NCBI GenBank assembly: GCA_029547705.1
Contig: JAKPOU010000035.1
Coordinates: 186,001 to 250,000, forward strand
Direction of reading: 5' to 3'
Origin: Bacteroidota bacterium
GTDB taxonomy: Bacteria > Bacteroidota > Bacteroidia > Bacteroidales > VadinHA17
DNA length: 64,000 bases
The notes under the pieces were generated by a model. That model saw nothing but the letters and a program-made list of their open reading frames with translations, searched no databases and was not told where the DNA came from. Within the stretch, counting starts at the first letter, position 1; the number at the start of each line of letters is the position of its first letter. The position numbers and the translations under genes are program-made. Positions 32,834-49,183 of the stretch are shown here, in pieces.

Positions 32834-35800
32834 CTATTCCTTTCGCAGAAGGGAGATCAGTTCACTGCTTTTTATTCCTCCGGCCGAAAAATAAAGCACA
32901 GCCGTTCCGGTGATAATTACCAGGAGTATCATTGCTGCCAGCAGTCCAAGCGGCATTTCGCTCCCGCTGCGTAATGAAGGTATTGTTGCAGTGATGCCTG
33001 ATACGGTACCGCATACCACCCCCCAGGCAAGAATGATCAGCTGATCCCTGAGAATAAGCTTCCTTATTCGTTCCACAGTGTAGCCGCTTGCCGAAAGAAA
33101 GGCAAATTCATGCTTCCTGATATTATAGTTCCGCAGAAGAACAAATCCCAGTCCCGTTATTCCCAGTATCATTCCGAAGGTTCCGAATACTGCGAACACA
33201 TTCAGATAGGTATTGGTTACCCGGAAAAAGGATGCAAGCTTTTCACCGGCACTTATTGCAGAGAAGCCGTAACCGGACAAACGCTCATTGAGTATCTTCC
33301 CGTAAAATTCCGATAATTCTGGCAGTCCGTCAACAAGAAAGACTGAACTGCCTTCCACAGACGGGTAAAAATGTGAGAGGTTTTCTTTGCTGATCAGCAG
33401 ATATCCCTGGAAAACAGATGATTTCAGTCCGGCCCCAATAATTACGTTCAGAGGCTGGCCGTTTTCAGATCTGAATACCAGGGTATCGCCGGTTCTGACC
33501 TGAAGACCCCACTGAAGAACCGTCTGGTCGGCTATCCCGTAAATCGTATTTTCTCCCGGATTATTGCCAAGAAGTTCCCAGGGATCAGTGTACTTCCCCG
33601 GTCTGATGACTGAAGCAAAAGAAAAAGCCTTCCTTTTGATGAATTCCCTGTAATCGACGCCCAGCAGCGGGGGAGATGCAACATAATTTAGATTGAGACA
33701 GCTGGCATCATCCCCCGTTACTCTGCTGCACTGGATTACAGACATGTCCTTAAGTTCCTCTTCGTTAAGGCCATATTCCGCCCTGCCGGATCCGGCCGAC
33801 AGATCTTCCTTTACCGGAACAGCTGACTCTGCCCATAGAAGGTATCCTCCGGTACCACCCGGCCGCTCCAGCATTTTATCTGTCAGTATCAGTTTGTTGG
33901 CTCCTGTTATCATGAGGGCAAAAATGCCTGCCGCAATAAAAATAACGGGAGTGACAATGTGGGAGGGATGAAAAGAATAATACTTTTTCTGAAAAGTAAA
34001 GGCGGAGGGGGCTTTGCTGCCTGCTTCAGGACTTTCCCTTATGTAGAAAAACCTTGCCAGCAGCACAACCGAAGCAAACAGGATAGTTCCCGAAACGAAG
34101 AAGAGTGTTGTGGAATAGTCCGGTAAGGTGAATCCGCAAACAAATACAATGATGAAAACTGTCAGTACAGCCGAAAAAGCTGCCAGATTTATCCGGGGTG
34201 AGTGTTTTTTCATTACACCCCCTGCCGGTTTGGTAAGCTGCCTCAGAAATTGCCGGGATTTGAAAAAGATGAGAATCAGGGATATAACCAGTACTGATGA
34301 AAAGGCATAAAGGAGAGGCAGGATGCTGAAATCAGCTGACAGGGCAGTGGTTTGCACAGCTCCGGACCATACTGAGTTGAGTGCCCTTATGATCAGGAGG
34401 TTCAGCAGATATCCGAGGAACACTCCGGGCAATGCCCCGGCAAATGACAATAAGCCCGATTCGCAGAAAAGCTGATTTCTTAAAAAACTGTTCCTGAATC
34501 CCAGTGCATACATGATTGCTGTCTGCTTCTTCCTTGTGTCGAAATACACCGAAACAGCAAACGATAAAAGTATCAGGCATGATACAATCATGAAGAAGCT
34601 GAGGCTGAGGAAAAGTGAGCTGAAATCCACGCTTTGTGCAGCACCTTCCAGGGCTGAGTCCCTGGCATTTGAAATGCTGAAGCCCGTAACGGACGGAATG
34701 AGGGAAGACCTGAGCCTTCCGTCTATTTCCTCAATGGATAACGATGAGGGAAACCTTAATGCAGTGGCTGTTCCGAAATTATTTCCCCACAGTCTTTTCC
34801 CGATTTCATAGCTGATGAATGCTTTCGGCGTCCCCCTGTATCTGTTCCAGTAATCCTCATCCTTCTTCCTTATCTGAGCGAGCAGGATGGGAACCCCGGC
34901 ATCCCAGCCCGCACAGGTGGTACTGCCCGATATTCCCGGAAAATCGGGCATAAGAGAGGAGTCTGCATAGTGGCCATTATCCCCGGCAATGGCAGCAATG
35001 TAAAAATCCCTGCTTTTCTCCTCCAGGCTTTTCCCTGAAGCAGGATCATACCAGCTTAATCTTACCGTATCTCCCGGAACAGCATCAAGATCGGCGGCAA
35101 GCCATTTGTTGATAATGATGCCTCCGGTATCAATGCCCGGGTACAAATGTCCGGGAAGGGCAGCGACAAATGAATATGGAGTTGATTTGTCCCTGATCCG
35201 GAAACTGTTGACAAGATAAGTCAGAACCGGCTCTCCCGTTGGTATGTTTCCAAGTATTTCCGAAACCAGAAGGCTGTCGAGAAATATCCGGTCGGAGATG
35301 AGTTCCCTTTCTCCAGTTTTGGCAGAAGTTCTTAAGGATAATCCGATATCAGCCGGTGTAAGCACGCTTGATAATATTTCATTATAATCAGCCTTGTTCA
35401 CCTGACTGACAAGAATCCTGTTGGCCTGTATCCTTTTGTTCTGTCCCCCGGCCATGTCGGCCATGTTCAGGAAAAGGACCATGGGTATCTGCTGGCTGAT
35501 CCCCGGTGAAAAATTGCCTCCCCTTTCCGGAGGAATTATATGACTTACTTTCAGCACTACAGAACCATGATCATCCTTTGCCGGGGCAAAAGGGGCATTT
35601 GACGGGAGGGGATCGGTTTCCCTGAAGCGTACAATGATTTCTTCACCTTCGCCAATGTCCAGATGCCGTGCAAGGCTCTGGTTAATACCAGCCTCACCCC
35701 TGGCTATCCGGAGTGAACCTGATCCGTGGAAGGGAAAGAAAGTGTCATCTGTTCCATAGATCCTTACGTTCAGTGCCGTTACTCCTGTTGAGAAATTACT

Positions 35801-36118
35801 GCAATATCCGTCTGTTTCCAGAATTGAAACAGCCGGGTTTCCTGTAGCTGCCGAAACTTTTTCTGAAAGGGCGGGGTCAAAATATCTCAGCCCTGAACTG
35901 ATTATAATATCGGTGCTGCCAAGTTTTTCCAGTGATGCCCGCTTCAGGCTGCTGCGCACGGAATGTCCCGTGAAAAGGGAACCGCTGATTACAGCTGACA
36001 GAACTGATATGATAATGATTTGATAAACAGCATCCTTCCTGTGATATACCAGGGATTTTAATATCATTCTGAGGATGTCTGACTTCATTGGTATGATGTT
36101 TTTCAGTTTACTGTTCAA
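32834..36118 (-). CDS. Large FtsX-type ABC transporter permease (1094 residues)
   Basis: Membrane protein with the duplicated layout of LolC/LolE- and MacB-like exporters: an N-terminal helix and large periplasmic region (about 45-510), a block of three or four helices (about 515-640) with YALGFRNSFLRNQLF coupling motif, further helices (about 650-745), a second periplasmic region (about 750-960), and a C-terminal FtsX block with LSASGYTVERIRKLILRDQL. Such permeases use ATP to move lipoproteins or other substrates out of the inner membrane, not across it. It is the last gene of a twelve-gene run, 14 bp after its ATPase. A second Met at 36088 is an alternative start. Confidence 0.9.
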   Translation of the reverse strand: MNSKLKNIIPMKSDILRMILKSLVYHRKDAVYQIIIISVLSAVISGSLFTGHSVRSSLKRASLEKLGSTDIIISSGLRYFDPALSEKVSAATGNPAVSILETDGYCSNFSTGVTALNVRIYGTDDTFFPFHGSGSLRIARGEAGINQSLARHLDIGEGEEIIVRFRETDPLPSNAPFAPAKDDHGSVVLKVSHIIPPERGGNFSPGISQQIPMVLFLNMADMAGGQNKRIQANRILVSQVNKADYNEILSSVLTPADIGLSLRTSAKTGERELISDRIFLDSLLVSEILGNIPTGEPVLTYLVNSFRIRDKSTPYSFVAALPGHLYPGIDTGGIIINKWLAADLDAVPGDTVRLSWYDPASGKSLEEKSRDFYIAAIAGDNGHYADSSLMPDFPGISGSTTCAGWDAGVPILLAQIRKKDEDYWNRYRGTPKAFISYEIGKRLWGNNFGTATALRFPSSLSIEEIDGRLRSSLIPSVTGFSISNARDSALEGAAQSVDFSSLFLSLSFFMIVSCLILLSFAVSVYFDTRKKQTAIMYALGFRNSFLRNQLFCESGLLSFAGALPGVFLGYLLNLLIIRALNSVWSGAVQTTALSADFSILPLLYAFSSVLVISLILIFFKSRQFLRQLTKPAGGVMKKHSPRINLAAFSAVLTVFIIVFVCGFTLPDYSTTLFFVSGTILFASVVLLARFFYIRESPEAGSKAPSAFTFQKKYYSFHPSHIVTPVIFIAAGIFALMITGANKLILTDKMLERPGGTGGYLLWAESAVPVKEDLSAGSGRAEYGLNEEELKDMSVIQCSRVTGDDASCLNLNYVASPPLLGVDYREFIKRKAFSFASVIRPGKYTDPWELLGNNPGENTIYGIADQTVLQWGLQVRTGDTLVFRSENGQPLNVIIGAGLKSSVFQGYLLISKENLSHFYPSVEGSSVFLVDGLPELSEFYGKILNERLSGYGFSAISAGEKLASFFRVTNTYLNVFAVFGTFGMILGITGLGFVLLRNYNIRKHEFAFLSASGYTVERIRKLILRDQLIILAWGVVCGTVSGITATIPSLRSGSEMPLGLLAAMILLVIITGTAVLYFSAGGIKSSELISLLRKE

Positions 36119-36132
36119 AGGATGATCTTCAT

Positions 36133-36801
36133 TTATATTGTTTTCAGTTTGCCGTTTTCAAGGATCAGGTGTGTTTTCATTCTTGAGGCAAGTGCATCTG
36201 AATGGGTTACAATGAGCAGTGTGAGGCCCGTTTCCCGGTTGATCTCCACAAGCAGATCGCCAAGTATTCTGGCATTTTCCGCGTCGAGAGATCCGGTCGG
36301 CTCATCAGCGAGAAGGAGGGAGGGTTTGTTTATCAGTGCCCGGACCAGGGTAGCCCTCTGTGCCTCGCCTCCCGATATCTGAAAGGGATACTTGCCGGCA
36401 AGGGGTGAGATGCCGATCCTCTTCATCAGTCCGGATGCATTTTTCTTTTTTTCTTCATATTCTGAAAGTCCGATATCTGAGGCAAAGAGCGGAAGAAGTA
36501 TGTTTTCCCCGACTGTAAGATGGGGAAGAAGAAGATGGTCCTGGAAAACGAATCCGATATTCCTGTTCCTGTAGGAAGCTGATTCATCTGCATCCAGTGT
36601 ACTTACTGACCTGCCCCGGAAGATCACATCCCCCGAATCGGGATGATCAAGTGTGCCGATAATGTTAATCAGGGTGGTCTTTCCGGAGCCGGACGGCCCT
36701 GTCACGGCAATGGCATCACCATCCCTGACGACAAGATCCAGATCCCCGAGAACCATTCCCCGTTGTGTGTAGGACTTTGATACTTTTTTAAGCTCCAGCA
36801 T
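36133..36801 (-). CDS. LolD/MacB-type ABC transporter ATPase
   Basis: ATPase of 222 residues partnering the FtsX-type permease. Walker A is GPSGSGKT (about residue 36), the Q-loop is FVFQDHLLLPHLTV, the signature is ISGGEAQRATLVRALINKP, Walker B is LLADEPTGSLD, and the switch His is in IVTHSDAL. All catalytic residues are present. Located 12 bp after the GT4 gene and 14 bp before the permease gene. Confidence 0.95.
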   Translation of the reverse strand: MLELKKVSKSYTQRGMVLGDLDLVVRDGDAIAVTGPSGSGKTTLINIIGTLDHPDSGDVIFRGRSVSTLDADESASYRNRNIGFVFQDHLLLPHLTVGENILLPLFASDIGLSEYEEKKKNASGLMKRIGISPLAGKYPFQISGGEAQRATLVRALINKPSLLLADEPTGSLDAENARILGDLLVEINRETGLTLLIVTHSDALASRMKTHLILENGKLKTI

Positions 36802-36813: not shown

Positions 36814-38094
36814 TTATTTATACACTTCATACATGCCGGCCGACATTTTCTCAATCGAAAGTTTTGTCAGAACCCGTTCCTTCCCGGTCTGCCCCAGTTT
36901 TGCAGCCAGCTCCCTGTCCGTTAAGAGCCTGTGCAGTGATGAAGACAGTTCCTCAACGGTATCAGGCTGATAAGTAATTCCTCCACCGGTTGTGGCAATT
37001 ATTTCGGGGAATGCGCCCGTGGCAGGTTGTACCACAGGTATTCCGCTGCTGTTGGCTTCCAGTATATACAGGCCGTATCCGTCATATTTCCGTACAGGAA
37101 CACTGATCACGTCAACATTGTTAAAAAATTCCATTTTTTTGTTACCCTGGAATTCAGGATAGATTCTTATGCTTTTCTGAAAGCCATGATCCCTGATTTT
37201 TCTGATCTGGTCTGAAATAAAAGCCTTGTCAATACCGGTATAGCCTCCGCAGACATGAAAACCGAGGTCATGCATTGAATATTTTGTTTTCAGTTCAATG
37301 AATGCGTCTGTGAGTTTATCAAATCCGTTGTGTTGACTGATGCGGCTGAAATAACCCAGGGCAGGAGGGCGGTTTGTGTTTCTTTCCCCGTAAGGCGGCT
37401 CCGGATCGAAGCCCAGGGGGATTACATGAATATTGTCTCCTTTCACACCGGTCTTTGAAATGAACAACTGCCTGTAATAGTTGCTGGGTGTGATGAAATG
37501 ATCCACGTACACCGATTCCCTGCCTATCATTTCCCATGCCCTGCTCTGCCATGGCTCCGCCATGTCATCAATCCAGTCATCCTCATTGAGCAGGGAGCAT
37601 ACCACCTTTACCTTCATCCTGTTCTTGAGCTGCCTGGCCAGGCCCAGGATAAGCGCGTTGGAGAGATGAATCACATCCGGCTTTCCTCCCTTCATCAGGT
37701 ATTTTACCAGCCTGTCAACCTCATTTTTGCGGAAGGCATTGTCGCCTTCTATCATGTTTATTGTAAGTTCCTCATATCCTTCCACGCTGGTTGTTCCCGC
37801 CTGCCGGGAGGCAAGTTTCAGAAAGGGTGTCATGTCGAAAAACCTTTCCAGAAAGGCCGGCATATTTTTGAGGAAGCCGGCTTTTTCCCTGAGGAACATC
37901 GAGATGGCACCAAAAAAGACATGCCTGTCAAATCCTGTTACCGAGCTGTCATCTTCAGGCGGGAGATACAGTGGTATGGCATTTGCGGTTATTCCGGGAA
38001 CCTGGCGGATTGCCCTGAAATAAAGCATGTCGCGGTAACAGTTTGCACAGTAGAATGATCCTCCCGATCCCGTTATCAGATAAATAACCTTCAT
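36814..38094 (-). CDS. Family 4 glycosyltransferase (GT-B fold)
   Basis: Protein of 426 residues. The N-terminal domain opens with IYLITGSGGSFYCANCYRD; the C-terminal Rossmann domain carries ALGYFSRISQHNGFDKLTDA and the donor-binding segment YDGYGLYILEANSSGIPVVQP, where the Glu of the EX7E-like motif is visible. It uses a nucleotide sugar; donor and acceptor are unknown. The CANCYRD segment with two Cys near residue 17 is unusual for GT4. Placed between a beta-propeller gene (135 bp upstream) and the ABC ATPase (12 bp downstream) in a single direction. Confidence 0.88.
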   Translation of the reverse strand: MKVIYLITGSGGSFYCANCYRDMLYFRAIRQVPGITANAIPLYLPPEDDSSVTGFDRHVFFGAISMFLREKAGFLKNMPAFLERFFDMTPFLKLASRQAGTTSVEGYEELTINMIEGDNAFRKNEVDRLVKYLMKGGKPDVIHLSNALILGLARQLKNRMKVKVVCSLLNEDDWIDDMAEPWQSRAWEMIGRESVYVDHFITPSNYYRQLFISKTGVKGDNIHVIPLGFDPEPPYGERNTNRPPALGYFSRISQHNGFDKLTDAFIELKTKYSMHDLGFHVCGGYTGIDKAFISDQIRKIRDHGFQKSIRIYPEFQGNKKMEFFNNVDVISVPVRKYDGYGLYILEANSSGIPVVQPATGAFPEIIATTGGGITYQPDTVEELSSSLHRLLTDRELAAKLGQTGKERVLTKLSIEKMSAGMYEVYK

Positions 38095-38229: not shown

Positions 38230-39345
38230 TTACTTTGTTCCGAAAGCCAGTAAACGTCCGTCTTCGGTAAGGAAATAAAATCTTCCTGTTGTGACAGCCG
38301 GAGAGCTGCTGACCGGCGCTCCGGCATTGAAGCTCCATTTTTTCCCGCCATCCTGCAGTCCAAGGATATAAACATTTCCGTCCATGCTTCCGAAAAGCAC
38401 TCCCGATGGCGTTATCACTGCCGAACCGGTGATCCGGCCGTTTGTCCTGAATTTCCAGATAAGCTCACCTGACCCGGAGTTGTAACAGTAAAGGTATTTA
38501 TCCTCATTTCCCACAACAAGCATATTCCTGCCGGCAGCCGGAATAGCCATTATTGCGCCGGATCCTTTCCCTGCAGGCACTTCCCATACCATTTTGCCGC
38601 TTATCATATCCAGGCAGTAAAGGTTTCCGTCATAATCGCCGAACCAGGCCCTTTCGCCGGATATTGCCGGAGACGCGGCTATATATCCGCCGGTTTCGAA
38701 CCTGTTTCTTTCCCTTCCGGTGAGAGGATCCGCAATTCTGACCATACCGTCGCAACCCCCGAAAACTATCCTGTTATTCATCACAGCCGGGGTGCCGTTG
38801 ACATAATTTTCCGTTTCAAGTTTCCACAGTAAGCGGCCGGTGAGCGGATCAACACAATGAAGATAGTAGTCATAACTGCCGAAAATCAGTCCGGTTGATT
38901 TTCCGGCACTCCAGATATTTGCCGATCCCACTATCTGGTTATCTGTTGAATATGACCATAACAGCCTGCCCGTTTTTTTGTCAAAGGCACGCATTATCCC
39001 GTCACCGCCGCCGATGAAAAGATAATCGCCGTAAATCATTGGCGGTGATTCAGCCGTTCCCCCTGTTTCCTTTTTCCATATGATTTTGCCTTCCGGGGAT
39101 ACAGCATACACATTGCCTTTCAGATTGCCGAAATAGATTATTCCGTCGCTGATCACTGGAGATGATTTGGAACCCTCACCCGTTGAGACGCTCCAGAGAA
39201 GTGCGGGAGCGGCCGGCAGGGCGGAGGCTGCATATCCGGTAAGATTGTATGTGCCCCGGAAAACAGGCCAGTCCGCTCCGGGTTTTTGTGACAGGGAAAC
39301 AAGACTGAGCGCTGAGAAAAATATCAATAGGAAAAGTTGATTCAT
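38230..39345 (-). CDS. Secreted PQQ-like beta-propeller protein (BamB-like repeats)
   Basis: Protein of 371 residues with a signal peptide (first about 19 residues, ending LSLVSLSQ). It consists of about seven blades, each closing with a tryptophan-docking phrase such as GKIIWKKETGG, GRLLWSYSTDNQ, GRLLWKLETEN, GKMVWEVPAG, GELIWKFRTNG and GKKWSFNAGAP. This is the PQQ-like fold shared by quinoprotein dehydrogenases and BamB. The Cys pair, calcium ligands and catalytic Asp of real PQQ dehydrogenases are not evident, so a scaffold or binding role is more likely. 84 bp after the NuoG-like gene and in the same direction. Confidence 0.9.
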   Translation of the reverse strand: MNQLFLLIFFSALSLVSLSQKPGADWPVFRGTYNLTGYAASALPAAPALLWSVSTGEGSKSSPVISDGIIYFGNLKGNVYAVSPEGKIIWKKETGGTAESPPMIYGDYLFIGGGDGIMRAFDKKTGRLLWSYSTDNQIVGSANIWSAGKSTGLIFGSYDYYLHCVDPLTGRLLWKLETENYVNGTPAVMNNRIVFGGCDGMVRIADPLTGRERNRFETGGYIAASPAISGERAWFGDYDGNLYCLDMISGKMVWEVPAGKGSGAIMAIPAAGRNMLVVGNEDKYLYCYNSGSGELIWKFRTNGRITGSAVITPSGVLFGSMDGNVYILGLQDGGKKWSFNAGAPVSSSPAVTTGRFYFLTEDGRLLAFGTK

Positions 39346-39429: not shown

Positions 39430-40485
39430 TTAAAAAAAGCTCAGGGCTCCTGTGGGGCAGACATTAACGCACAGCTCTGCCTGTGCTGCCGGTATATCAT
39501 CAAACTCAGCCGTAAGCGGTTCCGATATAAGGGATACAAATCCCCTGTTTATGAAGCACAGGGAGGGTTCTTCCTTTTTGTCCTCACAGATTCTCACACA
39601 AAGCCCGCATTTAATACATTTTGCATGTTCAAAAATCAGGCCTGTTCCCTGGCTGATCTTTTTTGTAAGCGGCAAACCGGCCACTTTGTTTCCCCTGTCC
39701 CTTATTCCGAGTTCCTGTGCAAGTTCCCTCAGACGGCAATTGTCCGATGCCCTGCAGTCGCAGTGCATACAGTTTTTTGCTTCTTCACCTGCTGAAATGA
39801 AGTCTGTGACAGATTCAAACCGTTTCCCGGCCTCCCTGCATTCCTTAAGCCATTCCTTCAGTTCCTCTTCCTCAATTCTCCCGGTCCGGGATGAAAAGAT
39901 TTTTTTGAAATCAGGGAATTCAGTCAGTTCTACAGGTTTCTGAGGACCGCCCTGGTAATTCAGATTGTGATAAATAAAGATTCTGATGTTCCGGATGGAC
40001 ACCTGTCTGTCAATTTTTCTTCTTCTGCATGCATTTTCGCAATACCCCCGGCAGCTGAGGCATCTAATCTCCGGTGCATCCAGTTCCGACATCACAAGTT
40101 CTATGGCTTTAATATATTCTCCTGCGGCAAGCAGCCTGTTCAGGCGCGGAATGTCATAACCTGCCGGACAGACTATCCTGCAGGGTGCCTCGCATTCGGC
40201 GCGGTGTTCCGAAAGCAGAAGCTCCACCGCCTTTTTCCTGGCTGACACAACATCCTCTCCGGAAGCATCTATGTCCATCCCTTCCCGTACAAGTGCCGTG
40301 CATGAGGGAAGGTAGCTGTCCGAAGCCTTATCCCTGACCATGCATACCATGCATGAGGTATAATGTTCAATACCGTCCATGTGGCACAGTGTGGGAATGG
40401 AAACACCGGCCCTCTGGCTGACTGACAGAATGGTTTCACCGGCTTCGGCATCCACTTCAATATTGTTTATTCTGATCTTAAACAT
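39430..40485 (-). CDS. NuoG-like iron-sulfur protein without a catalytic domain
   Basis: Protein of 351 residues, cytosolic. An N-terminal plant-type [2Fe-2S] ferredoxin domain has Cys34, Cys45, Cys48 and Cys62. A middle region with Cys98/102/106 and Cys142/145/149/153 resembles the N-terminal iron-sulfur domain of glutamate synthase small subunit (Fer4_20 type). Another Cys cluster is at 239-250. A C-terminal ferredoxin-like region has Cys290/293/296/300 and Cys339/343. There is no hydrogenase H-cluster, molybdopterin or flavin domain, so it can only relay electrons. It overlaps the NuoE-NuoF gene by 8 bp and is surely its partner. Confidence 0.88.
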   Translation of the reverse strand: MFKIRINNIEVDAEAGETILSVSQRAGVSIPTLCHMDGIEHYTSCMVCMVRDKASDSYLPSCTALVREGMDIDASGEDVVSARKKAVELLLSEHRAECEAPCRIVCPAGYDIPRLNRLLAAGEYIKAIELVMSELDAPEIRCLSCRGYCENACRRRKIDRQVSIRNIRIFIYHNLNYQGGPQKPVELTEFPDFKKIFSSRTGRIEEEELKEWLKECREAGKRFESVTDFISAGEEAKNCMHCDCRASDNCRLRELAQELGIRDRGNKVAGLPLTKKISQGTGLIFEHAKCIKCGLCVRICEDKKEEPSLCFINRGFVSLISEPLTAEFDDIPAAQAELCVNVCPTGALSFF

Positions 40486-42886
40486 TATTATCCATTATTT
40501 CGACAGCATTTTCAGGACAAACAATTCTGCAATTATCACATTTAGTACACAATTCCTGGTTTATTTCATGTTTTTCGTAGGGTCTGAAACCTATCGCGCC
40601 TACCGGGCATTCCTGAGAGCATTTTGTACAGCCCGTGCACTTATCGGTAATAACATACCTGATCAGTTCCCTGCATTTTTTCGCAGGACAGATACCTGAA
40701 GCATGAGCCTCATATTCCTTACGGAAATATTTCAGTCCTGTTATCACCGGATTGGGAGCAGTTTTTCCAAGACCGCACAGACTTCCGTTCTTAACATAGT
40801 GACAAAGTGATTCCAGTTCATCTATTTCCTTCATGTCCGCCTTTCCTTCACTGAGGCGGGTCAGTATGTCCAGCATATGCTTTGTTCCGACCCTGCAGAA
40901 TGTACATTTCCCGCAAGACTGCTTATGGGTGAAGCTCAGAAAATATTTTGCCACATCCACCATACAGTCTGTGTTGTCAAGCACGACGAGGCCTCCTGAT
41001 CCCATCATTGCACCCATTCTGTTCAGCTCCTCGTAGTCAACCGGGGTGTCCGCCATGGAAGCAGGAATACAGCCGCCCGATGGTCCTCCAATCTGTACCG
41101 CCTTGAATTTTCTTCCTTCCGCCACACCCTCGCCTATATCCTCAATTATTTCACGAACAGTAATTCCCATGGGCACCTCGATCAATCCCCCCCGTGCCGT
41201 TTTACCCGCAAGAGCAAAAACCTTGGTTCCCTTGCTTTTCTCGCTTCCTGTCCTGCTGAAGGCTTCCGCTCCCATATTTATAATCCATGGAACCACTGCA
41301 AGGGTTTCCACGTTGTTCACAAGGGTGGGCCGGTTCCTGTATCCCCTGACAGCCGGGAAGGGAGGCCGCAGATGGGGTGTCCCGCGTCTGCCTTCGAGTG
41401 ATGTTATCAATGCGGTTTCCTCACCACATACAAAGGCACCGGCACCTTCAAATATCTCTGCCCTGAAGGAAAATTCCGAACCAAGGATATTTTCCCCGAG
41501 AAAGCCTTTCTCATAACAATGCTTCAGTGCATTTCCTATTCTTTCCACTGCCAGCGGATATTCCGCCCTTATATAGAATATTCCTTCAGAGGCCCCTGTG
41601 GCATAGGCAGCTATAAGCATTCCTTCAATTATCCGGTAGGGGAATGATTCAAGAAGCATCCTGTCCATGAATGCACCGGGATCACCCTCATCGCCGTTAC
41701 AGACTATGTATTTCAGTTTTCCCGGCTCATTTGCCACAATACGCCATTTTTCACCCGTGGGGAATCCTGCACCGCCACGGCCTCTCAAATCGCTTTTTAT
41801 AATAATATCGGTTATTTGTCCGGGGTCGCCCGACTGAATTGTTTTTTTCAGTGCATCAAAACCGCCGAGCATCAGGTACTCTTCAACAGAATCGGGAGTG
41901 AGGATGCCGCAGTGCATGGTAGCCAGCCTGACCTGCTTCCTGGTGAAATTGTTCAGGTATTTTTCCCTTTCATCAGCAGGTATATTAACCGGGCTTTCAA
42001 GCAGGTGATCCGTGACAAAAGTGTCAGCCAGATCATTGATTCTGTACCGGATTTTCTTTGTCAGTGATTCCGGGCCGATATGCCTGAGAAGAATTTCCTC
42101 AACCTGATCCTGAGTTACGTTTGTATATCTTGAATGTTCACCGTTTCCGGCAACTATTTCCAGTAAAGGGGTTTGATTGCATACTCCCACGCAGCCAACC
42201 GGCTTGATTTTGATTCTGAGGTCAAAGCTGTCGGTGATCTCAATGAGCCTGGAAAGTATGTTTCTGCTGCCGCCGGCGATGCAGCATGAACCCAGACCGA
42301 TCCTGACCTCGGCGTCATGACCGGCCAGGGATGCTTTGTCTTCTGAACGGGATACCTTGCCTCCCGAAACAAGAAAATCCTTCAGTATATCTCCGGCCTG
42401 TGTCGGCTTTACATGTCCGTATGTTTTGTCATCGATCTGTACAACAGGCGCCAGTGTGCAACAACCCAGACAGGCAACTTCCTCTATTGAAAACAGGTTG
42501 TCCGGGGAAGTGTTCTTCCGGTCACCGATGTTAAGAACTCTTCTGAATGAATCGCTTATGAGTTGTGAGCCTTTCACGTGACAGGCTGTTCCGGAGCAAA
42601 CCTTAATAATATGCTTTCCTGTGGGAAGATGATGGAACTGGCTGTAAAAGGTGGATACTCCGGATATCTGTCCGGGTGTTATATCAGTTATTTTGCATAT
42701 ATGCCTGAGTGCTTCTGACGGGATGTAAGACAGTCTTTTCTGGACTTCCTGAAGTATGGGGATCACCCTGTCCTTCCCTTTTCCTGTCAGGGCGACAACC
42801 TCCTCAACAACCGGAATGATTTTGTCTGTGCCGGTTGACTGGCAACTGCATGTCTCTTCTCTTGTATTTACTGTCTTTTTATTCAA
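40478..42886 (-). CDS. NuoE-NuoF fusion, NADH-oxidising flavin/iron-sulfur subunit
   Basis: Protein of 802 residues. Residues about 20-172 are NuoE with [2Fe-2S] ligands Cys97, Cys102, Cys139 and Cys143. About 193-270 is a second thioredoxin-like ferredoxin with Cys201/202, Cys232 and Cys236. About 320-715 is NuoF with the FMN/NADH loop GRGGAGFPTG (369-378), an SLBB segment and N3 cluster ligands Cys658, 661, 664 and 704. The C-terminus has two [4Fe-4S] motifs (Cys750/753/756/760 and 780/783/786/790). This is the NADH module seen in bifurcating hydrogenases and formate dehydrogenases, but no hydrogenase or dehydrogenase gene is present. Overlaps both neighbours by 8 bp. Confidence 0.93.
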   Translation of the reverse strand: MNKKTVNTREETCSCQSTGTDKIIPVVEEVVALTGKGKDRVIPILQEVQKRLSYIPSEALRHICKITDITPGQISGVSTFYSQFHHLPTGKHIIKVCSGTACHVKGSQLISDSFRRVLNIGDRKNTSPDNLFSIEEVACLGCCTLAPVVQIDDKTYGHVKPTQAGDILKDFLVSGGKVSRSEDKASLAGHDAEVRIGLGSCCIAGGSRNILSRLIEITDSFDLRIKIKPVGCVGVCNQTPLLEIVAGNGEHSRYTNVTQDQVEEILLRHIGPESLTKKIRYRINDLADTFVTDHLLESPVNIPADEREKYLNNFTRKQVRLATMHCGILTPDSVEEYLMLGGFDALKKTIQSGDPGQITDIIIKSDLRGRGGAGFPTGEKWRIVANEPGKLKYIVCNGDEGDPGAFMDRMLLESFPYRIIEGMLIAAYATGASEGIFYIRAEYPLAVERIGNALKHCYEKGFLGENILGSEFSFRAEIFEGAGAFVCGEETALITSLEGRRGTPHLRPPFPAVRGYRNRPTLVNNVETLAVVPWIINMGAEAFSRTGSEKSKGTKVFALAGKTARGGLIEVPMGITVREIIEDIGEGVAEGRKFKAVQIGGPSGGCIPASMADTPVDYEELNRMGAMMGSGGLVVLDNTDCMVDVAKYFLSFTHKQSCGKCTFCRVGTKHMLDILTRLSEGKADMKEIDELESLCHYVKNGSLCGLGKTAPNPVITGLKYFRKEYEAHASGICPAKKCRELIRYVITDKCTGCTKCSQECPVGAIGFRPYEKHEINQELCTKCDNCRIVCPENAVEIMDNNV

Positions 42887-44585
42887 TTTCTGATATGCAA
42901 TACAGATTTTCTCTTCCTCTTATATAAATACACCCGTCGGAAAATGCCGGTGTGCAGTCGGCAGCTTCTCCCAGGGGTGATTCAGCAAGCAGCTCAAACC
43001 TTGAATCCGCTTTTATCACCTTCATGACGCCGCTTCTGTTAAGCAGCCATACCCTGTCATCGGCAATCACCGGGGAAGCATAGAACTGATCCATGAGATA
43101 GTGGGTCCACAGTGTATCGCCCTTCATTGCATCATAACACACTACATCGCCGTAGCCTGTTGCAAGGAAAAGATACTCATCCGTTGCAACCGGGCTTGAT
43201 ACATCGGGAGTGAACATATCGTCCGACCATATTATTGATGCCCCCGTCCCTGGCCTTATTGCTGCAAGTACTGCATAGTCTGTTACGGCATACACCATTG
43301 TGCCGTTTACCGCGACAGAAGGGGCAACATCGCCCGACATGCATTCGACTGCCCATAATTCCTTTCCGCTGACGGGATCAAAGCCGGTGACCCAGGGATT
43401 GCCGTTTATTATCACCTGGGCGGTACCGTTGAAGTTCGCAAGGACGGGGGAAGACCATGAAGGCCTGTCACGGCGGATTGTTTCCCATTTCAGTTCTCCG
43501 CTTTCCAGCTCAAAACCCATAAGTGAAACCTTTATGTCTGCATCATACTGTACAAGAAGAAGATCTTCATGGATAATAAGAGAACATGAATAGCCATATA
43601 CATTTTCAGGTGTCTCCAGGTTCTTTGCCCATTTTGTGTTGCCGTCGTGGTCAAGGCATATCAGATTTCCGTTGGCAAATATTGCGCATACCGAGCTGGC
43701 GTTAACTGCTGCCGTTGACACGGCCATTCCTGCATCATAATCCATTTCAGGAACTACGGAAGGTTCTCCGGGGATTCCGGATGCTGATGCACTCCACAAA
43801 ATTTCACCCGATTTCTTGTCAATGCAGTAAACCTCACAATCAGTGTTTTCTGCCCCGGTAACGAATAATTTATCACCCCATATTACCGGAGAGCTCTTAC
43901 CATCTTTGGGTATCTGTAACTTCCATTTGATATTAGTGCCATCTTCACCGTTCCAGTGCAGGGGATAATTCCTGCCCCCGGCTATGCCTCGGCTGTCCTG
44001 GCCCCTGAAAAAGGGAAAATTAACGGCATCCGGTTCATAGCTGCCTTTAACAAGTGCCGGTCTGCCTGTTTTTTCCTTCTTTCCTGCGGGTCTTTTCCGG
44101 TCCAGGTCGGGCAGACCGGATCTCAGGAAAAAGGAGGCAATAATTGCCGTTGCCGTTATAATCGAAACGGATACAAGCATGTGCTTCATCCCCTTTTTGC
44201 GGACATCTGTTTCATCGGGCAGCTCACCGGGAATAACGGGAACAGCTTTTTTATTTTCCGACAGGACATACTGGCTGAAAAAAAAGACTATGGCGCCTGC
44301 CAGTAAAAGATAGGAACCGGTTTCTATCTGTCTCCGTGAAGCGAAATAGGCTTTCCTGGCCATCAGGTCCAGGGCCCTTACCTGTTCAGCCTTGACGGTA
44401 TTGCCGGGATCATTGTCATATTGTTCCTTTATTTCTGTCAGCACAGGATTGTCCAGCGGATCAATGGCTTTCAGCTGAATAATGCTGAAAAGCATCGTCA
44501 GGGCCACGAGGATGGTGAAAATACCTGCAATCAGGCTGACTTTCCTCAGAACATCTATATCCTTTTCTTTAAGATTCATTTTCAA
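42879..44585 (-). CDS. Membrane-anchored PQQ-like beta-propeller protein
   Basis: Protein of 568 residues. The N-terminus has membrane helices at about 15-37, 85-105 and 132-153, separated by a charged loop. The rest is a periplasmic PQQ-like propeller with blade phrases GTNIKWKLQIPK, GEILWSASAS, GNTKWAKNL, GELKWETIRR, GKELWAVECM and GDTLWTHYLM. Starts in an ATGA overlap with the NapH-like gene and overlaps the NuoE-NuoF gene by 8 bp at its end. This coupling ties an exported propeller directly to redox subunits on both sides. Cofactor binding is unproven. Confidence 0.9.
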   Translation of the reverse strand: MKMNLKEKDIDVLRKVSLIAGIFTILVALTMLFSIIQLKAIDPLDNPVLTEIKEQYDNDPGNTVKAEQVRALDLMARKAYFASRRQIETGSYLLLAGAIVFFFSQYVLSENKKAVPVIPGELPDETDVRKKGMKHMLVSVSIITATAIIASFFLRSGLPDLDRKRPAGKKEKTGRPALVKGSYEPDAVNFPFFRGQDSRGIAGGRNYPLHWNGEDGTNIKWKLQIPKDGKSSPVIWGDKLFVTGAENTDCEVYCIDKKSGEILWSASASGIPGEPSVVPEMDYDAGMAVSTAAVNASSVCAIFANGNLICLDHDGNTKWAKNLETPENVYGYSCSLIIHEDLLLVQYDADIKVSLMGFELESGELKWETIRRDRPSWSSPVLANFNGTAQVIINGNPWVTGFDPVSGKELWAVECMSGDVAPSVAVNGTMVYAVTDYAVLAAIRPGTGASIIWSDDMFTPDVSSPVATDEYLFLATGYGDVVCYDAMKGDTLWTHYLMDQFYASPVIADDRVWLLNRSGVMKVIKADSRFELLAESPLGEAADCTPAFSDGCIYIRGRENLYCISEIE

Positions 44586-45856
44586 TCTTTTTTACTGACT
44601 TGAACAGGACAGTATTTAAAACAGCGGCCGCAACTGTAGCATTTGCCCCTGTGCGGCTCATAACCGGTGCGGCCGGTTCTTATGGTTAGAGCCACCAGGC
44701 TTATGCCCAGGGACAATCCAAGAAAGCCTCCCGCCCAGGGAGAAGCTTTCCTGAACCTGTGAATGATCGCAAGTTCCTCTGTGAAAAGCTCATCTTCTGT
44801 TTTCCCCGCTTCCTTGAAGGCGACAGCATCCTTCGACACAGCCTCGATGCCGGATTCCTTTTCAAGCCGTATTTCCCCGGCAAGACGTACTTCCCGGGTT
44901 ATTCCGGCCATAACCGGTCCGAGATTATGGAAGACCAGTGCTCCTGCCGCAGTAAAGACCGGAATAAGAATGATCCATGTCAGAAACATTTTTCTGATTT
45001 TTTTTCTTTCCTCTGCTGTCGGGACTGCATCCGGTTTAAGAATTGCATCATAGGGACATGCGTTTTCACACAGGCGGCAGTTAATGCACTCAGCTGGTGT
45101 AATGGAAAGATGTTTCCCTGAAAAGCGTGAAAAAATATTGAGTATAGCTCCGTAGGGGCACAGGTATCTGCAGTATGGCCGGTTGACGAAAATTCCGGCA
45201 AGCAGGAGCAGAGCCCCGAAAATCAGTATGGTGTGGGGAGCGTCAAGCCGGAAGATACCTACGAAAGGGTCATAGCGGCAGATGAGGAAATGACTCTTCA
45301 TTGCAGCAAACAACACTGCAACAGCGAGATAAATAAAAGGAACAGATGCAAGTACTGTCTCTGCAGCTTTCGGCAGCTTAACCGGACTGAAGCCTGTCAG
45401 TTCCTGAATTGCACCCAGCGGACAGACACCGGCACAGAAGACTCTTCCGTAAAGCAGGGCGAAAACAAGGGGAACAATAAAGAAGAGAAGTGCAGTGAGA
45501 GGAATTGAATAATCCGAATTGAACAATGCCAGTGAAACATTCTGTACCGAGCCTACCGGACAGATACAGCCCTTTCTGAAAAAACCGAAATACAGCAGTG
45601 AAAAAACAGACATCCCGACCAGCCCCCGGCGGGATCTCTTTTTAACTGCAAGCCAGGCTGTCACGGACAAGGCAGCGATCAGTACTGCCACGTCGAGATA
45701 GTCAAGGAGATACGACCTCTGAAATGGAGCCTGGTGTTCAGGATACACGTAGTCGGATTCAAATTCCGGTCTTGGGAATCTGTCCTGTGCGTGAAGGCCT
45801 GAATACCAGTTCAGGAAAATAAAAACAAAGATATATGGCAGTAATTTTTTCAGCAT
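44582..45856 (-). CDS. NapH/NosR-like membrane polyferredoxin
   Basis: Integral membrane iron-sulfur protein of 424 residues with an N-terminal signal or anchor and about seven further helices. Cys-Pro motifs lie at helix ends: CICP (97-100), CAGVCP (141-146) and CRYLCP (229-234), with another Cys at 193, as in NapH and the NosR C-terminus. A [4Fe-4S] site has Cys257, 260, 263 and 267, and a last C-terminal site reads CYSCGRCFKYCP. NapH-type proteins pass electrons between the quinone pool or cytosolic ferredoxins and the periplasm. It starts 29 bp after the Tat ferredoxin gene. Confidence 0.9.
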   Translation of the reverse strand: MLKKLLPYIFVFIFLNWYSGLHAQDRFPRPEFESDYVYPEHQAPFQRSYLLDYLDVAVLIAALSVTAWLAVKKRSRRGLVGMSVFSLLYFGFFRKGCICPVGSVQNVSLALFNSDYSIPLTALLFFIVPLVFALLYGRVFCAGVCPLGAIQELTGFSPVKLPKAAETVLASVPFIYLAVAVLFAAMKSHFLICRYDPFVGIFRLDAPHTILIFGALLLLAGIFVNRPYCRYLCPYGAILNIFSRFSGKHLSITPAECINCRLCENACPYDAILKPDAVPTAEERKKIRKMFLTWIILIPVFTAAGALVFHNLGPVMAGITREVRLAGEIRLEKESGIEAVSKDAVAFKEAGKTEDELFTEELAIIHRFRKASPWAGGFLGLSLGISLVALTIRTGRTGYEPHRGKCYSCGRCFKYCPVQVSKKD

Positions 45857-45885: not shown

Positions 45886-46479
45886 TTATGATTCCGGAAC
45901 CGGCGGGCCATCTGCCTTATGGATATACTGCCTGCCGGCGGGCACCCTGGATATTGCATCCGAAGGACATTTCCTGGCAATAAGACAGTCGTTGCAGTTA
46001 TCGCAAAGCTCCTGGTTTATCTGCAGATACAGTGACCCGTTGCCGAAATCGATGCATCCCTTCACGCATTTACCGCAGCCGTCGCACAGATCTTCATTGA
46101 TAGTATACTCAAAATATGGTTCCTCCACGAAGCGCCTGGTAATTGCCCCTGTGGGACAAAGCTGATTTTCGGCGCCGGTGCTGATTGTTCTCACTCCCTG
46201 CCGCAGATACCCGCCGCAGAGATCGCAGTAACCGCACATAACAAATGCATGGTAGCATTTTACAGCCGAGGGGGTTTTTACACAATTGGTTTTGCACTGG
46301 CCACACTGGGTGCATTTAAAGGGGTCAATCTGCCAGACATATCCCGAAGCCGTTGTTTTCCGCGAAAGTGCCAGGGGCAGTGCAACAAGCGGAGCCGTAA
46401 CAAGTATCTTTCCCGCCTTGCTTACAAAATCCCTTCTGCTGCTGTATTTGTTTTTCTGTCTGCTCATTTGATCCTGCAC
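45886..46479 (-). CDS. Tat-exported polyferredoxin (NapG-like)
   Basis: Protein of 197 residues. The twin-arginine signal is SSRRDFVSKAGK (Arg15, Arg16), followed by a hydrophobic run. Four cysteine groups suit up to four [4Fe-4S] clusters: CTQCGQCKTNC (from 56), CGYCDLC with LCPTGA, CDGCGKCVKGC, and CDNCNDCLIARKCP. The Tat signal implies it folds with its clusters in the cytosol and works in the periplasm, as NapG does. It is the natural periplasmic partner of the NapH-like protein encoded next. Met5 at 46467 is an alternative start. Confidence 0.91.
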   Translation of the reverse strand: MQDQMSRQKNKYSSRRDFVSKAGKILVTAPLVALPLALSRKTTASGYVWQIDPFKCTQCGQCKTNCVKTPSAVKCYHAFVMCGYCDLCGGYLRQGVRTISTGAENQLCPTGAITRRFVEEPYFEYTINEDLCDGCGKCVKGCIDFGNGSLYLQINQELCDNCNDCLIARKCPSDAISRVPAGRQYIHKADGPPVPES

Positions 46480-46512
46480 TTGCTGATTATTTTGTGATAT
46501 TGTATCCTTTCA

Positions 46513-46722
46513 TTAAGCCCTGCCTCTCCTAAACTTATTCCTGTTCCGGTATTTATCACAATCCGTTTTCTCCCGGCAAATTCCATTCACCGGACAAAGC
46601 GAACAATCCCTGTCAAAAACAATCCTGCTTCCAAGTAGTGCAGCAATAAGAGCCAGAATGCCGGCCATGAGCAGCCTGACTGTTTTTTTTATGAATTCAT
46701 TTCTTGTTGTCAATGCAGACAT
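46513..46722 (-). CDS. Small Cys-rich single-pass membrane protein, 69 residues
   Basis: One membrane helix (about residues 15-33) and then a short tail with four cysteines spaced C-x2-C-x5-C-x5-C (CSLCPVNGICREKTDC), then a very basic end. The cysteine spacing could hold an iron-sulfur cluster or another metal. It lies in the middle of the redox run, 33 bp before the Tat ferredoxin gene and 44 bp after the NHL gene. I know no family. The conserved-looking layout and operon position argue that it is a real gene. Confidence 0.7.
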   Translation of the reverse strand: MSALTTRNEFIKKTVRLLMAGILALIAALLGSRIVFDRDCSLCPVNGICREKTDCDKYRNRNKFRRGRA

Positions 46723-46766
46723 ATATATATAGGTATACTTAATTATCGTTTGTTTTCAATAAGGGT

Positions 46767-47702
46767 TCAGATATTTTCATTCTTTCTCCGGAATACATAA
46801 AGTTTTGAATCGTCCGGGTTTGCGGCATAGATCGTCTTTCCGTCCGCTGAAGCTATATCCAGCGGAACCGAAGGTGTAAATGTATTCCGGGATGATACAA
46901 ATTCAACAAAAGCACCCTGGTGGTCAAGTATCTTAATCCTGTTGATTCCTTTCTCGGCAGTTACGAAACCCTGCGGTATCACGGCAAAGTGGGCGGGATT
47001 GCAGCAGCCGCAGAATGCTTCAGGGGCAGTGCCTGCTTCCCCGAACTGTCCTTTCTTTATACCGCCGGGAGTCCATGTTTCAATTCTTCTGTATCCCGTA
47101 TTTGCCGCATAGAAGAGTCCTTCATCCGTCAGTGCAACATCGAAATACGGACTGGGTATAATGAATTTATCAACAGAATGTCCTGCCATTGATATTACTT
47201 CCCCGGTTTTATCGAGAATGAATACCCTCTTGTTTTCTGAATCAGCAAAGCCAACATTTTTCGCGCTGGCAGAGACTGAAGTAATATAACTGCGGGATTC
47301 ATAGGGGCCCCATTCCGTGATCATTTTTCCGTCGCTGCCCACCAGGTGAATAATACTTGCTGAAGCTGCATAGACCGTATCACCGTAAACCGCCACGGCA
47401 GTGATGCCATCCGGTGTTGAGGTCTTCCAGACCAGGTTCAGTGAATTATTGTAGCGCGACAGGAATGATTTTCCTCCCAGAAAGATATCTCCGTCAGGCG
47501 ATACTGCCACAGACATCAGTTGCCCGTAATCAATGTCAAGCTGCTTTCCGGCCTGCCATAGGTCGGGAGGATCTTCCGCCGCAGCAGTTTTTTCCGGTGT
47601 TTCACGGTTTTTTTCCGGTTTAACGGAATCATAGACAATATAGGCGATAAAGGTCAGTATTATCACCAATGATATTATCGCATAGCTTTTTTTGTTCATC
47701 AT
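46767..47702 (-). CDS. Membrane-anchored NHL-type beta-propeller with CGCCNP motif
   Basis: Protein of 311 residues with an N-terminal membrane anchor (about 7-25) and a six-bladed NHL or SMP-30-like propeller: DGDIFLGGKSFLSRY, DTVYAASASIIHLV, ENKRVFILDKTGEV, EGLFYAANTGYRRIETW, KGINRIKILDHQGAF and KTIYAANPDDSKLYVF. A striking segment, EAFCGCCNPAHFAV, lies near residue 230; its cysteines may bind a metal or cluster or form a disulfide. The start codon lies in an ATGATGA overlap with the stop of the upstream propeller gene; a longer frame reaching 47789 lies inside that gene and is rejected. Confidence 0.85.
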   Translation of the reverse strand: MMNKKSYAIISLVIILTFIAYIVYDSVKPEKNRETPEKTAAAEDPPDLWQAGKQLDIDYGQLMSVAVSPDGDIFLGGKSFLSRYNNSLNLVWKTSTPDGITAVAVYGDTVYAASASIIHLVGSDGKMITEWGPYESRSYITSVSASAKNVGFADSENKRVFILDKTGEVISMAGHSVDKFIIPSPYFDVALTDEGLFYAANTGYRRIETWTPGGIKKGQFGEAGTAPEAFCGCCNPAHFAVIPQGFVTAEKGINRIKILDHQGAFVEFVSSRNTFTPSVPLDIASADGKTIYAANPDDSKLYVFRRKNENI

Positions 47703-49183
47703 GAAGAATTTTTTCCAATTGTAAGACAAATCATATTTCTTGAATCCCTCAGTATAAGGTAGTTGCCGGCAATGGCCATTGGTCCCCATGCCTCGATACC
47801 ATCGAGAATATCATATCTGGCTATCAGCGATGCAGAGGCCCCGTCAAGCTGAAAGAAAAACAGGTTTGCATCATCATCCATGAGAAACATCTTGTCTTCT
47901 TTCACAACATAGGGTCCCAGACCCCGTCCGAATCTGCTGTCCTTTCCGCTGGTCCACACCGGCTTCCGGAGATCCGACAGATGGTAACAGACAAGCTGCC
48001 TTTTCAGGGGGCCTGCATTTTCAGGCATCACCGACCAGATATAATCCCCTGTGATAACGGGTGTCTGCTGATCGCTTGACAGTCCCTCCATGGCTTTGTG
48101 GCTTTCAATCACTGAAGCCGTGTATCCCGAACCGTCATAGCTGATTTTTATTCTGGCTCCCCCTGCACCATAGCTGCCGAAAACAGCAATCTCATTATCA
48201 TTCAGAAGAACGGGCGATGCTGCCACGGTGAGCGGATTCCATTTCGTGGTCTGCCAGAGCAGTTTTCCCCTGTCGGCACCTTCCGCCGACACAGCGCAAA
48301 CACCTCCGATGGCATTGTAAACGTACATTTTTTTTCCGTGTATCCTCATCGGAATGATGGAACAGTGCGACATTCTGAGAGTATCAGGATTGGGAGTGGT
48401 CCACAATACCTGTCCGCTTTCGCAGTCAATGCCTGTCATCAGGGCTTTTCCGCCGGGTGCCAGCACTGCAACCCCATCATCAATCAACGGACACTGACCG
48501 GTATAAAAATCCGGAGTGATCCTGCCCTTTGTCTTTCCCGGAATTTCGAATTCCTTTTCCATGTCGAGGCTCCACCTAAGATCTCCGCTCAGCGGATCCA
48601 GGCACATCACATGGGAGCGCGGACCAATTGTCAGCAGGTAATCATCCGTTATTGCAGGAATGGTACGCGAGTAACCGTGATTTCTCTTTATGTCAACATA
48701 ATACCATCTTCTCCAGAGTTCCGTCCCCGATTTAAGGGAAAAGCATCTGAGCATATCTGCTTTCCGCCGTTCGTTGTAATCCATAACATATACCCGGCCG
48801 TTCCAGACTGCGGGTCCGGCATATCCCTCACCCAGTGTAACCTTCCAGGCCACCGGCGGACCTGAGGAATCCCATAATTCCGCAAGATTAAAAGTGTCCC
48901 TGCATATATTGTCGAAATTGGTCCCGCGGAATCTGGGCCAGCTTCCCGGAACATATTCGTCAAAACTGTTAAGGGTATCAAAAAATTCACCAATGATCAC
49001 GGAATCGGATCTGGGCTCTAGTTCCGGCCTGTTATCCATTCCGGGAACACGGGCGACCATTTCTGCCGGATAGTGGTCGTCTGCGATCCACCAAACCAGG
49101 AAGCCGCCTGACAGAAGCGCTGTAAGCATGATAATAAGCGTATATCTTTTCCCTGATCCCATTACCCGTTTAAGCAACATCAA
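47699..49183 (-). CDS. Membrane-anchored PQQ-like beta-propeller protein, first gene of the redox run
   Basis: Protein of 494 residues with one N-terminal membrane helix (about 17-35) and a periplasmic PQQ-like propeller. Blade phrases are GPPVAWKVTLGEG, GTELWRRWYYV, GDLRWSLDMEK, GQVLWTTPNPD and GKLLWQTTKWNP. The propeller opens with PGSWPRFRGTNFDN, a phrase common to exported PQQ-like proteins of Bacteroidota and Planctomycetota. It is the most upstream of twelve same-direction genes; the 473-bp region before it should hold their promoter. Cofactor not evident. Confidence 0.9.
   Translation of the reverse strand: MMLLKRVMGSGKRYTLIIMLTALLSGGFLVWWIADDHYPAEMVARVPGMDNRPELEPRSDSVIIGEFFDTLNSFDEYVPGSWPRFRGTNFDNICRDTFNLAELWDSSGPPVAWKVTLGEGYAGPAVWNGRVYVMDYNERRKADMLRCFSLKSGTELWRRWYYVDIKRNHGYSRTIPAITDDYLLTIGPRSHVMCLDPLSGDLRWSLDMEKEFEIPGKTKGRITPDFYTGQCPLIDDGVAVLAPGGKALMTGIDCESGQVLWTTPNPDTLRMSHCSIIPMRIHGKKMYVYNAIGGVCAVSAEGADRGKLLWQTTKWNPLTVAASPVLLNDNEIAVFGSYGAGGARIKISYDGSGYTASVIESHKAMEGLSSDQQTPVITGDYIWSVMPENAGPLKRQLVCYHLSDLRKPVWTSGKDSRFGRGLGPYVVKEDKMFLMDDDANLFFFQLDGASASLIARYDILDGIEAWGPMAIAGNYLILRDSRNMICLTIGKNSS

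Follow-up and report, generated by a model that had tools for sequence, protein, structure and literature searches.

A run of twelve genes at positions 32834-49183 of a 64,000-nucleotide stretch of Bacteroidota DNA (here called the window; positions 186,001 to 250,000 of contig JAKPOU010000035.1, assembly GCA_029547705.1, 70 contigs, 3.78 Mb; Bacteroidales, VadinHA17) appears to join a cytosolic electron-bifurcating core of the Bfu type to a set of redox proteins facing the cell envelope. All twelve open reading frames (ORFs) lie on the minus strand and are separated by -8 to +135 bp, the largest interval being that between a secreted propeller (PQQs) and a GT4-type glycosyltransferase. In the order of transcription they encode PQQ1, NHL, a 69-residue protein, TatFd, a NapH-like protein, PQQm, a BfuC-BfuB fusion, BfuA, PQQs, GT4, an ABC ATPase and FtsX. 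The coordinates agree with an initial annotation made from the letters of the window, which had described a minus-strand run of twelve genes with overlaps or short gaps of at most 135 bp, and the domain names given there are matched by Pfam and NCBIfam, with the corrections described below. The run is real, and it is mostly inherited as a unit, with exceptions. With somewhat less than even confidence we propose that the NapH-like protein, TatFd and the propellers NHL, PQQ1, PQQm and PQQs constitute an inner-membrane and periplasmic redox assembly, which would normally be wired to the Bfu-type core through a contact between BfuA and the NapH-like protein.

The gene that had been annotated as a NuoE-NuoF fusion (40478..42886, minus strand; 802 residues) is, by its domains and cluster ligands, a fusion of BfuC and BfuB, the core of the Bfu (HydBC-like) family of electron-bifurcating enzymes. 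Its domains had been named correctly, but the Bfu-type core with its ferredoxin branch had been missed. Pfam places PF01257 in two stretches, PF01512, PF10589 and Fer4 on the protein, which consists of a NuoE part, a second thioredoxin-like [2Fe-2S] stretch, a NuoF part for FMN and NADH and a C-terminal 4Fe-4S dicluster domain; the BfuB domains PF01512, PF10589 and PF00037 score over cut-off. For IPR019554, a BfuB criterion that we take to be the SLBB domain, no Pfam match was found in the fusion at E 0.01, and the NuoF model TIGR01959 spans the region. The best PDB matches are chains 9n5u_B (NfnB; E 5e-209), 8oh5_B (Stn), 9bov_B, 7t2r_B (subunit B of a NiFe hydrogenase) and 8a6t_B (electron-bifurcating HydB). 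The Stn structures are those named 8OH5 and 8OH9 (PMC10482914).

The Bfu family is defined by the BfuBC core, in which the B2 cluster is bound by Cys, His, Cys and Cys, the His being missing from non-bifurcating homologs, with Cys or Thr at a fifth position (Schut et al. 2022, PMC9304861). In an alignment of 87 operon proteins the four ligands (C641, H728, C733 and C738) are kept in all 84 that have letters at these positions, the other three being gapped, and the fifth position is variable (44 Thr, 24 Cys, 10 Ser, 4 Arg, 2 Val; Ser in the window). A strict text pattern for the His motif recovers only 18 of 86, because the residue preceding the His varies; the alignment is therefore the proper test. 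The ligands of the C1 [2Fe-2S] cluster in the PF01257 region of BfuC (C97, C102, C139 and C143) are present in 74 of 74. Among the paralogs in the same genome, L002 and L004 share the four B2 ligands and L005 and L006 do not.

The gene following the fusion (39430..40485, minus strand) had been described as a NuoG-like relay. An iron-sulfur relay with Fer2 and Fer4_20 domains it remains, but its identity is rather that of an Nfn-type BfuA, in the window without FAD and NADPH domains. Fer2_4 scores 50.4 bits, Fer4_20 30.0 and Fer4 21.4 (cut-off 21.1), and the nearest PDB chains are 8oh5_C, 9bov_A and 9n5u_A. The 71 BfuA sequences comprise 56 long forms (at least 492 residues), 12 short forms (323-366 residues) and three partial ones (264, 279 and 445 residues), which were left out of the motif counts. 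The FAD motif GxGPAG occurs in 49 of the 56 long forms and in none of the 12 short ones, and the NADPH motif G[GAS]G[NDS][VTAS]A is absent from all 56 long forms; the same pattern was found in its one positive control, a thioredoxin-reductase-like ORF. In L038 the long form has Fer2, Fer4_20 and a Pyr_redox-type domain. Short forms are those of the window's genus (except genome G017) and of loci L152, L154 and L165. Since BfuA lacks the NADPH motif, its third substrate is likely to be something other than NADPH.

On the envelope side, TatFd (45886..46479, minus strand) is a predicted Tat-exported ferredoxin of the Fer4 families, whose 16 cysteines could hold four [4Fe-4S] clusters; they are invariant in 21 of 21 aligned sequences, and an RRxF-type signal is present in 102 of 107. 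The NapH-like protein (44582..45856, minus strand) is a polytopic [4Fe-4S] membrane protein with PF12801 in two stretches, Fer4, Fer4_5 motifs and transmembrane (TM) segments predicted by hydropathy. Its score with TIGR02163 (62.0 bits) is below the curated cut-off of 213.05, and that with the broader PF12801 is sufficient.

NapH has been described as a putative quinone-binding subunit (PMC8238504), and the main rival to the proposed wiring is that menaquinone is the partner of the NapH-like protein. The operon would then specify a menaquinone-linked bifurcating NADH:ferredoxin oxidoreductase, similar in its result to EtfABCX, which couples NADH oxidation to the reduction of ferredoxin and menaquinone (PMC10734219), or a quinol-fed relay with the Bfu core as a second entry. 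In a sample of 29 genomes (25 carriers of the NHL gene and four non-carriers) PF02621 is over cut-off in 27, mostly with two copies, the pattern of the futalosine pathway; MenB is over cut-off in one, a genome beyond those 27, and cytochrome bd is present in 28. The idea of a quinone-free genus, raised by the single MenB match, was rejected on the PF02621 and cytochrome bd counts. A menaquinone partner would also fit the retention of the relay without the Bfu core in genomes G014 and G023, described below. It would, however, leave a 16-cysteine Tat ferredoxin and several periplasmic propellers unnecessary, as quinone reduction does not need them, and one carrier (G038, 90% complete) has neither PF02621 nor MenB over cut-off. 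We regard menaquinone as a serious but doubtful candidate. The initial annotation had considered the propellers the only candidates for the exported partner; NHL and PQQ1 do remain candidate sites, but menaquinone has to be counted as a live partner beside them.

PQQ1 (47699..49183, minus strand), the first gene, encodes a BamB/PQQ-like beta-propeller (PF13360) anchored by one N-terminal TM segment. Its structural model (pLDDT 88.4, pTM 0.83) has BamB, tetrathionate hydrolase and PQQ-ADH as nearest folds. Residues R167, N168, H169, R173, T174, C194, C231 and H273 are invariant in 40 aligned sequences and at least 97% conserved in 101, a set of polar residues that looks enzyme-like. NHL (46767..47702, minus strand) is a membrane-anchored propeller with a GCCNP motif. 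The propeller had been recognised initially, but the start at 47789 is replaced by 47702 (MMNKK) as the most likely one, because 19 of 25 long non-self matches align only from residue 26-39 of the long form; five align from residue 1 but contain stops, and one aligns from residue 93. The model (pLDDT 92.1) has the NHL fold, with TRIM2 nearest. C233, C234, T248, E250, K251 and R255 are at least 97% conserved in 110 sequences; in the model the Cys-Cys pair is located in the loop before strand 238-242 and the Glu-Lys pair directly after strand 245-249, and the two pairs may share one face near the central channel. PQQm (42879..44585, minus strand) combines a PQQ-like propeller (PF13360) with three TM segments predicted by hydropathy, and PQQs (38230..39345, minus strand) is a secreted PQQ-like propeller (PF13570, PF13360) with a hydrophobic N-terminal segment. 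The 69-residue protein between NHL and TatFd (46513..46722, minus strand) has one TM segment and the motif C-x2-C-x5-C-x5-C, which recurs in 18 of 108 NHL-TatFd gaps, only in the window's genus.

The conservation of PQQ1 and the presence of the enzymes tetrathionate hydrolase and PQQ-ADH among its nearest folds would also suit an inward route, in which a propeller enzyme oxidises a periplasmic donor of intermediate potential and the electrons are bifurcated to NAD+ and ferredoxin; Bfu enzymes have been reported to be reversible (PMC9304861). Such a route we consider very unlikely. There is no heme motif and no known donor or dehydrogenase signature in the operon, and PqqE is over cut-off in none of the 29 genomes, although its equal absence from 14 control genomes makes this a weak test.

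For the proposed wiring to the Bfu core, the following scheme can be drawn. The fused BfuC-BfuB would exchange electrons with NAD(H) and ferredoxin, and BfuA, having no NADPH equipment, would hand the electrons of the third substrate to the NapH-like protein and then to the exported ferredoxin, the third substrate being located in the membrane or the periplasm. With outward flow, NADH and reduced ferredoxin might together reduce this substrate (confurcation), or NADH might reduce it with ferredoxin being reduced too (bifurcation). GT4 and ABC-FtsX would probably serve to prepare the envelope partner or to move it. The usual source of electrons would be the Bfu core, others being possible. We infer the BfuA-NapH contact, the direction of flow, the acceptor and the roles of the propellers and of GT4-ABC-FtsX from what can be read in the sequences: gene content, cofactor ligands, the missing NADPH motif, conservation, co-occurrence and covariation. 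A complete route from NADH through cytosolic iron-sulfur centres and a membrane ferredoxin to the exterior, as initially annotated, is thereby reduced to a plausible chain of redox centres. The link to NADH implied by the earlier idea of an NADH-driven reductive process stands, but the idea is too narrow, since a ferredoxin branch belongs to the Bfu-type core on the cytosolic side, and electrons might flow in either direction. A more specific version is unlikely: the third substrate of the bifurcating enzyme would be processed beyond the cytoplasm, the propeller assembly would be a new periplasmic redox enzyme with PQQ1 and the vicinal cysteines of NHL as candidate sites, and GT4, ABC-FtsX or the terpenoid cluster described below would supply the exported lipid-linked or terpenoid compound on which it acts.

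The same gene order recurs in about a hundred Bacteroidota loci. The NHL query has matches in 25 of 41 genomes, among them that of the window, and nearly all of the 25 surrounding loci hold the order as far as their contigs extend; L046 has an additional propeller within the run. When genome contigs were scanned with a TatFd alignment, at least 529 relatives turned up; the best 80 of these were all from Bacteroidota and included isolates of Mariniphaga, Tangfeifania, Maribellus and Gaoshiqia. Many loci contain further propellers upstream (PQQx). Among loci reaching far enough, TatFd has same-strand neighbours in PQQ1 (93/97), NHL (109/111), NapH (106/107), PQQm (92/93), the BfuC-BfuB fusion (77/80) and BfuA (65/70), counts that may take in related propellers where propellers are concerned, and whose denominators leave out short contigs (among them L147-L149 for most partners, and L056 and L058 for the fusion). 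Further downstream, PQQs follows BfuA in 50 of 55 loci, GT4 follows PQQs in 29 of 32, the ABC gene follows GT4 in 10 of 10 and FtsX follows ABC in 7 of 7. By an alternative count, the fusion is present in 59 of the 61 loci with PQQm as well as PQQs. Two loci were removed beforehand as duplicates at the protein level (L062 of L038, L079 of L037), other duplicates between collections only if their protein sequences were identical; L039, L044 and L057, which have no TatFd match, were left out of the TatFd-partner counts, as were, for each partner, loci too short to include it. The genes inserted between the fusion and BfuA in L067, L070, L084 and L127 appear unrelated on a partial reading.

The neighbourhood search and the co-occurrence statistics that the initial annotation had suggested both bear out the association, which is beyond chance: the order is kept across relatives, with the partners on the same strand in most loci, and of 344 sampled genomes of the order 58 have TatFd, 53 have the fused core and 50 have both (Fisher 8e-48, uncorrected for phylogeny). 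In 39 of the 50 genomes the two are on one contig, always on the same strand and 3.0-4.6 kb apart. The 53 fused-core genomes are all those with matches to E 4e-253, plus G559 (64% identity, a frame of 846 residues); weaker matches (48-50% identity), among those listed, mostly have a stop between BfuC and BfuB. In the window's genus the fused core is present in 17 of 25 genomes, all within the 21 NHL carriers; in G002 (75% complete) and G020 (89%) it has no match, and the operon contigs end before its expected place. Pairwise distances in nine gene families correlate with r 0.86-0.96, multi-copy loci having been left out per family. The version in G017, a genome listed in the window's genus, is for the six genes tested no closer to that of the window than to those of two other families, a result that points to transfer of the whole set or to a binning error. 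Samples of the whole phylum, which in the part listed contain few members of the order, gave one TatFd match in 296 (E 1e-20) and one match to the TatFd of the L148 type in 395 (E 1e-18), in both cases the window's own genome.

Several observations weigh against the proposed wiring. The operon holds no terminal enzyme. The initial annotation had said as much, cytochromes c included, and the families of the twelve proteins (none of them NapA or NosZ by Pfam and NCBIfam) and a scan for CxxCH bear it out; no CxxCH was found in the twelve window proteins or in 13 families of the relatives, and a hidden cytochrome was rejected for this reason. Both the Fisher value and the distance correlations partly reflect shared ancestry, and in L039 the NHL gene is followed by unrelated genes. 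The Bfu pair is missing from G014 (97% complete; L058/L198) and G023 (90%; L056), which retain PQQ1, NHL, TatFd, NapH, PQQm and PQQs, with complete sets of cysteines in TatFd and NapH and with PQQs 97-113 bp after PQQm; G014 additionally retains GT4, ABC and FtsX. The fused core has no match anywhere in either genome, and the envelope part is therefore probably served by another electron donor there. A divergent minimal relay on contigs of 5-9 kb (L147-L149) consists of TatFd, NapH, an NHL protein with GCCNP and a PhnD-like lipoprotein whose cysteines are conserved (both of the lipoproteins tested match PF12974), with no Bfu or PQQ-like genes; G454 and G533 have other Bfu-like genes elsewhere in the genome. 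The relay also lacks an adjoining fused core in L091, and in L160 and L150, although the latter two genomes have a match on another contig. In all, eight of the sampled genomes have TatFd without the fused core, three of them with the minimal variant (the others being G377, G446, G505, G573 and G580).

These loci would also suit two modules that share nothing but their operon, namely a Bfu enzyme that is soluble and an envelope relay independent of it: G014 and G023 have the relay and no Bfu pair, as do L147-L149 and L091 on the contigs seen. The converse is not seen, however, as the fused core is accompanied by TatFd in 50 of 53 genomes and in the other three (G543, G561 and G577) the contigs end beside the fused core or NapH/PQQm. 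BfuA has no NADPH motif and the run offers nothing else as a third substrate, and in L158 (1447-4050, minus strand) BfuA and PQQs are fused in frame through the hydrophobic leader of PQQs. The product would be a topologically sensible protein reaching from cytosol to periplasm; it is one metagenomic ORF and the sole case. Independence of the two modules we consider quite improbable. A strictly indivisible unit is rejected by G023 and G014. To the question raised initially, whether the gene set falls apart in relatives, the answer is that it mostly holds together but is separable in G014, G023 and L147-L149. Because these hold the relay without it, the Bfu core is, on gene content, a usual but replaceable partner of the envelope relay, which is the constant element.

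The closest known relatives of the core are the Nfn-Bfu/Stn enzymes (StnABC of Sporomusa ovata, Nfn-Bfu of Thermococcus sibiricus), which share the BfuB and BfuC domains, the cluster ligands, an Nfn-type BfuA with Fer2 and Fer4_20, and the best PDB matches. In contrast to these, BfuC and BfuB are fused in the operon, BfuA has no NADPH motif and, for most of the window's genus, no FAD domain either, and the genes are tightly coupled to those of NapH, TatFd and the propellers. Quinol-linked ferredoxin relays of the NapGH/NosGH type pair a polytopic [4Fe-4S] protein with an exported polyferredoxin. The operon contains such a pair too, but no NapA or NosZ; it usually has a cytosolic Bfu core, and its NapH scores under the curated cut-off. 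The membrane-bound Mbh-Bfu and Nuo-Bfu, which Schut et al. (2022, PMC9304861) predicted, likewise tie a Bfu core to membrane proteins, but use proton-pumping modules of the complex-I or Mbh type; in the operon NapH and an exported ferredoxin take their place. Neither NapH nor propellers are mentioned in the main text of that article. With the NapH-like flavinylated systems (Meheust et al. 2021, PMC8238504) the operon shares a NapH-like membrane conductor to the extracytosolic side. The clusters described there contain an FMN-binding domain, whereas none of the twelve operon proteins has an FMN-binding Pfam match at E 0.01. In agreement with the initial annotation, no named system of this composition was recognised in searches of one open-access library, which does not cover subscription papers and preprints. 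What appears to be new, judged by gene content, is a Bfu core whose third branch would face the envelope.

Schut et al. list 17 BfuB clades without assignable function (PMC9304861). If the proposed wiring is true, one BfuB group would obtain a concrete setting, from the Bfu core through a NapH-type conductor to the envelope, and energetics at the level of ferredoxin would be joined to extracytoplasmic chemistry without cytochromes c or flavinylated carriers from the operon. The system can be put to the test in the named isolates that carry the locus (Mariniphaga, Tangfeifania, Maribellus, Gaoshiqia), and a natural comparison is offered by congeners that have the Bfu pair and congeners that lack it.

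The last three genes, which remain linked in relatives, encode a GT4-type glycosyltransferase (36814..38094, minus strand; PF00534, PF13439), a LolD/YbbA-like ABC ATPase (36133..36801, minus strand; PF00005) and an FtsX-type permease (32834..36118, minus strand; PF02687 in two stretches, ten TM segments predicted by hydropathy). The N-terminal YCxNC motif of GT4 (Y15, C16, N18 and C19) is at least 97% conserved in 41 sequences, and we know of no other glycosyltransferases with it. The best NCBIfam model for the ATPase, LolD, scores 211.7 bits, below its cut-off of 307.75. That the substrate is a glycoconjugate or a lipoprotein, as initially suggested, is speculation.

Some relatives carry a terpenoid cluster (L152/L169, L154/L170, L040/L168 and L185-L194) that encodes a ferredoxin-like protein, a radical SAM protein, a fusion of DUF116 with a polyprenyl synthase, a protein of about 290 residues and a squalene-cyclase-like protein. 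The DUF116 fusion occurs in 15 of the 344 genomes, 13 of which carry TatFd (Fisher 2e-9, uncorrected); the other two, G482 and G484, belong to genera that include genomes with both. The cluster is found next to the operon in G342, G522 and G574, and in G017, which is outside the 344-genome sample; in G653 it is located beside PQQx genes at a contig end. For G430, G418, G585, G514 and G484 the stretch fetched shows it away from the operon, and the other contigs are short. At E 1e-60 no match to the cluster was found in the window's genome. For some carriers the distribution is a hint, and no more than that, of a connection with terpenoids or lipids. GT4 was not found in the stretches fetched from G522 or in the part fetched of the G017 contig; a loss of GT4 from loci with the cluster was dropped as an idea, as G342 has GT4 after FtsX (L171).

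On the other side of the operon, upstream of PQQ1, a 27-codon ORF (49555-49638, plus strand) is a close match to the N-terminus of a gene of about 360 codons, phosphotriesterase-like by sequence reading, that is found divergently oriented upstream of the operon in L041-L043. As the ORF in the window stops after 27 codons, it looks like a remnant of that gene. Four sulfatases (PF00884) adjoin the operon here, as does an anaerobic sulfatase maturase for which TIGR03942 and NF010308 are over cut-off (49657-55936, plus strand, and 57734-59116, minus strand, for these genes together), and related sulfatases are located beside it in L041, L043, L044, L058 and L060 among the 25 loci. The 3' side of the operon is occupied by a rhamnose locus (25717-32814) with an alpha-L-rhamnosidase, an L-rhamnose isomerase and an FGGY kinase, and in G014 the isomerase and the kinase likewise follow FtsX.

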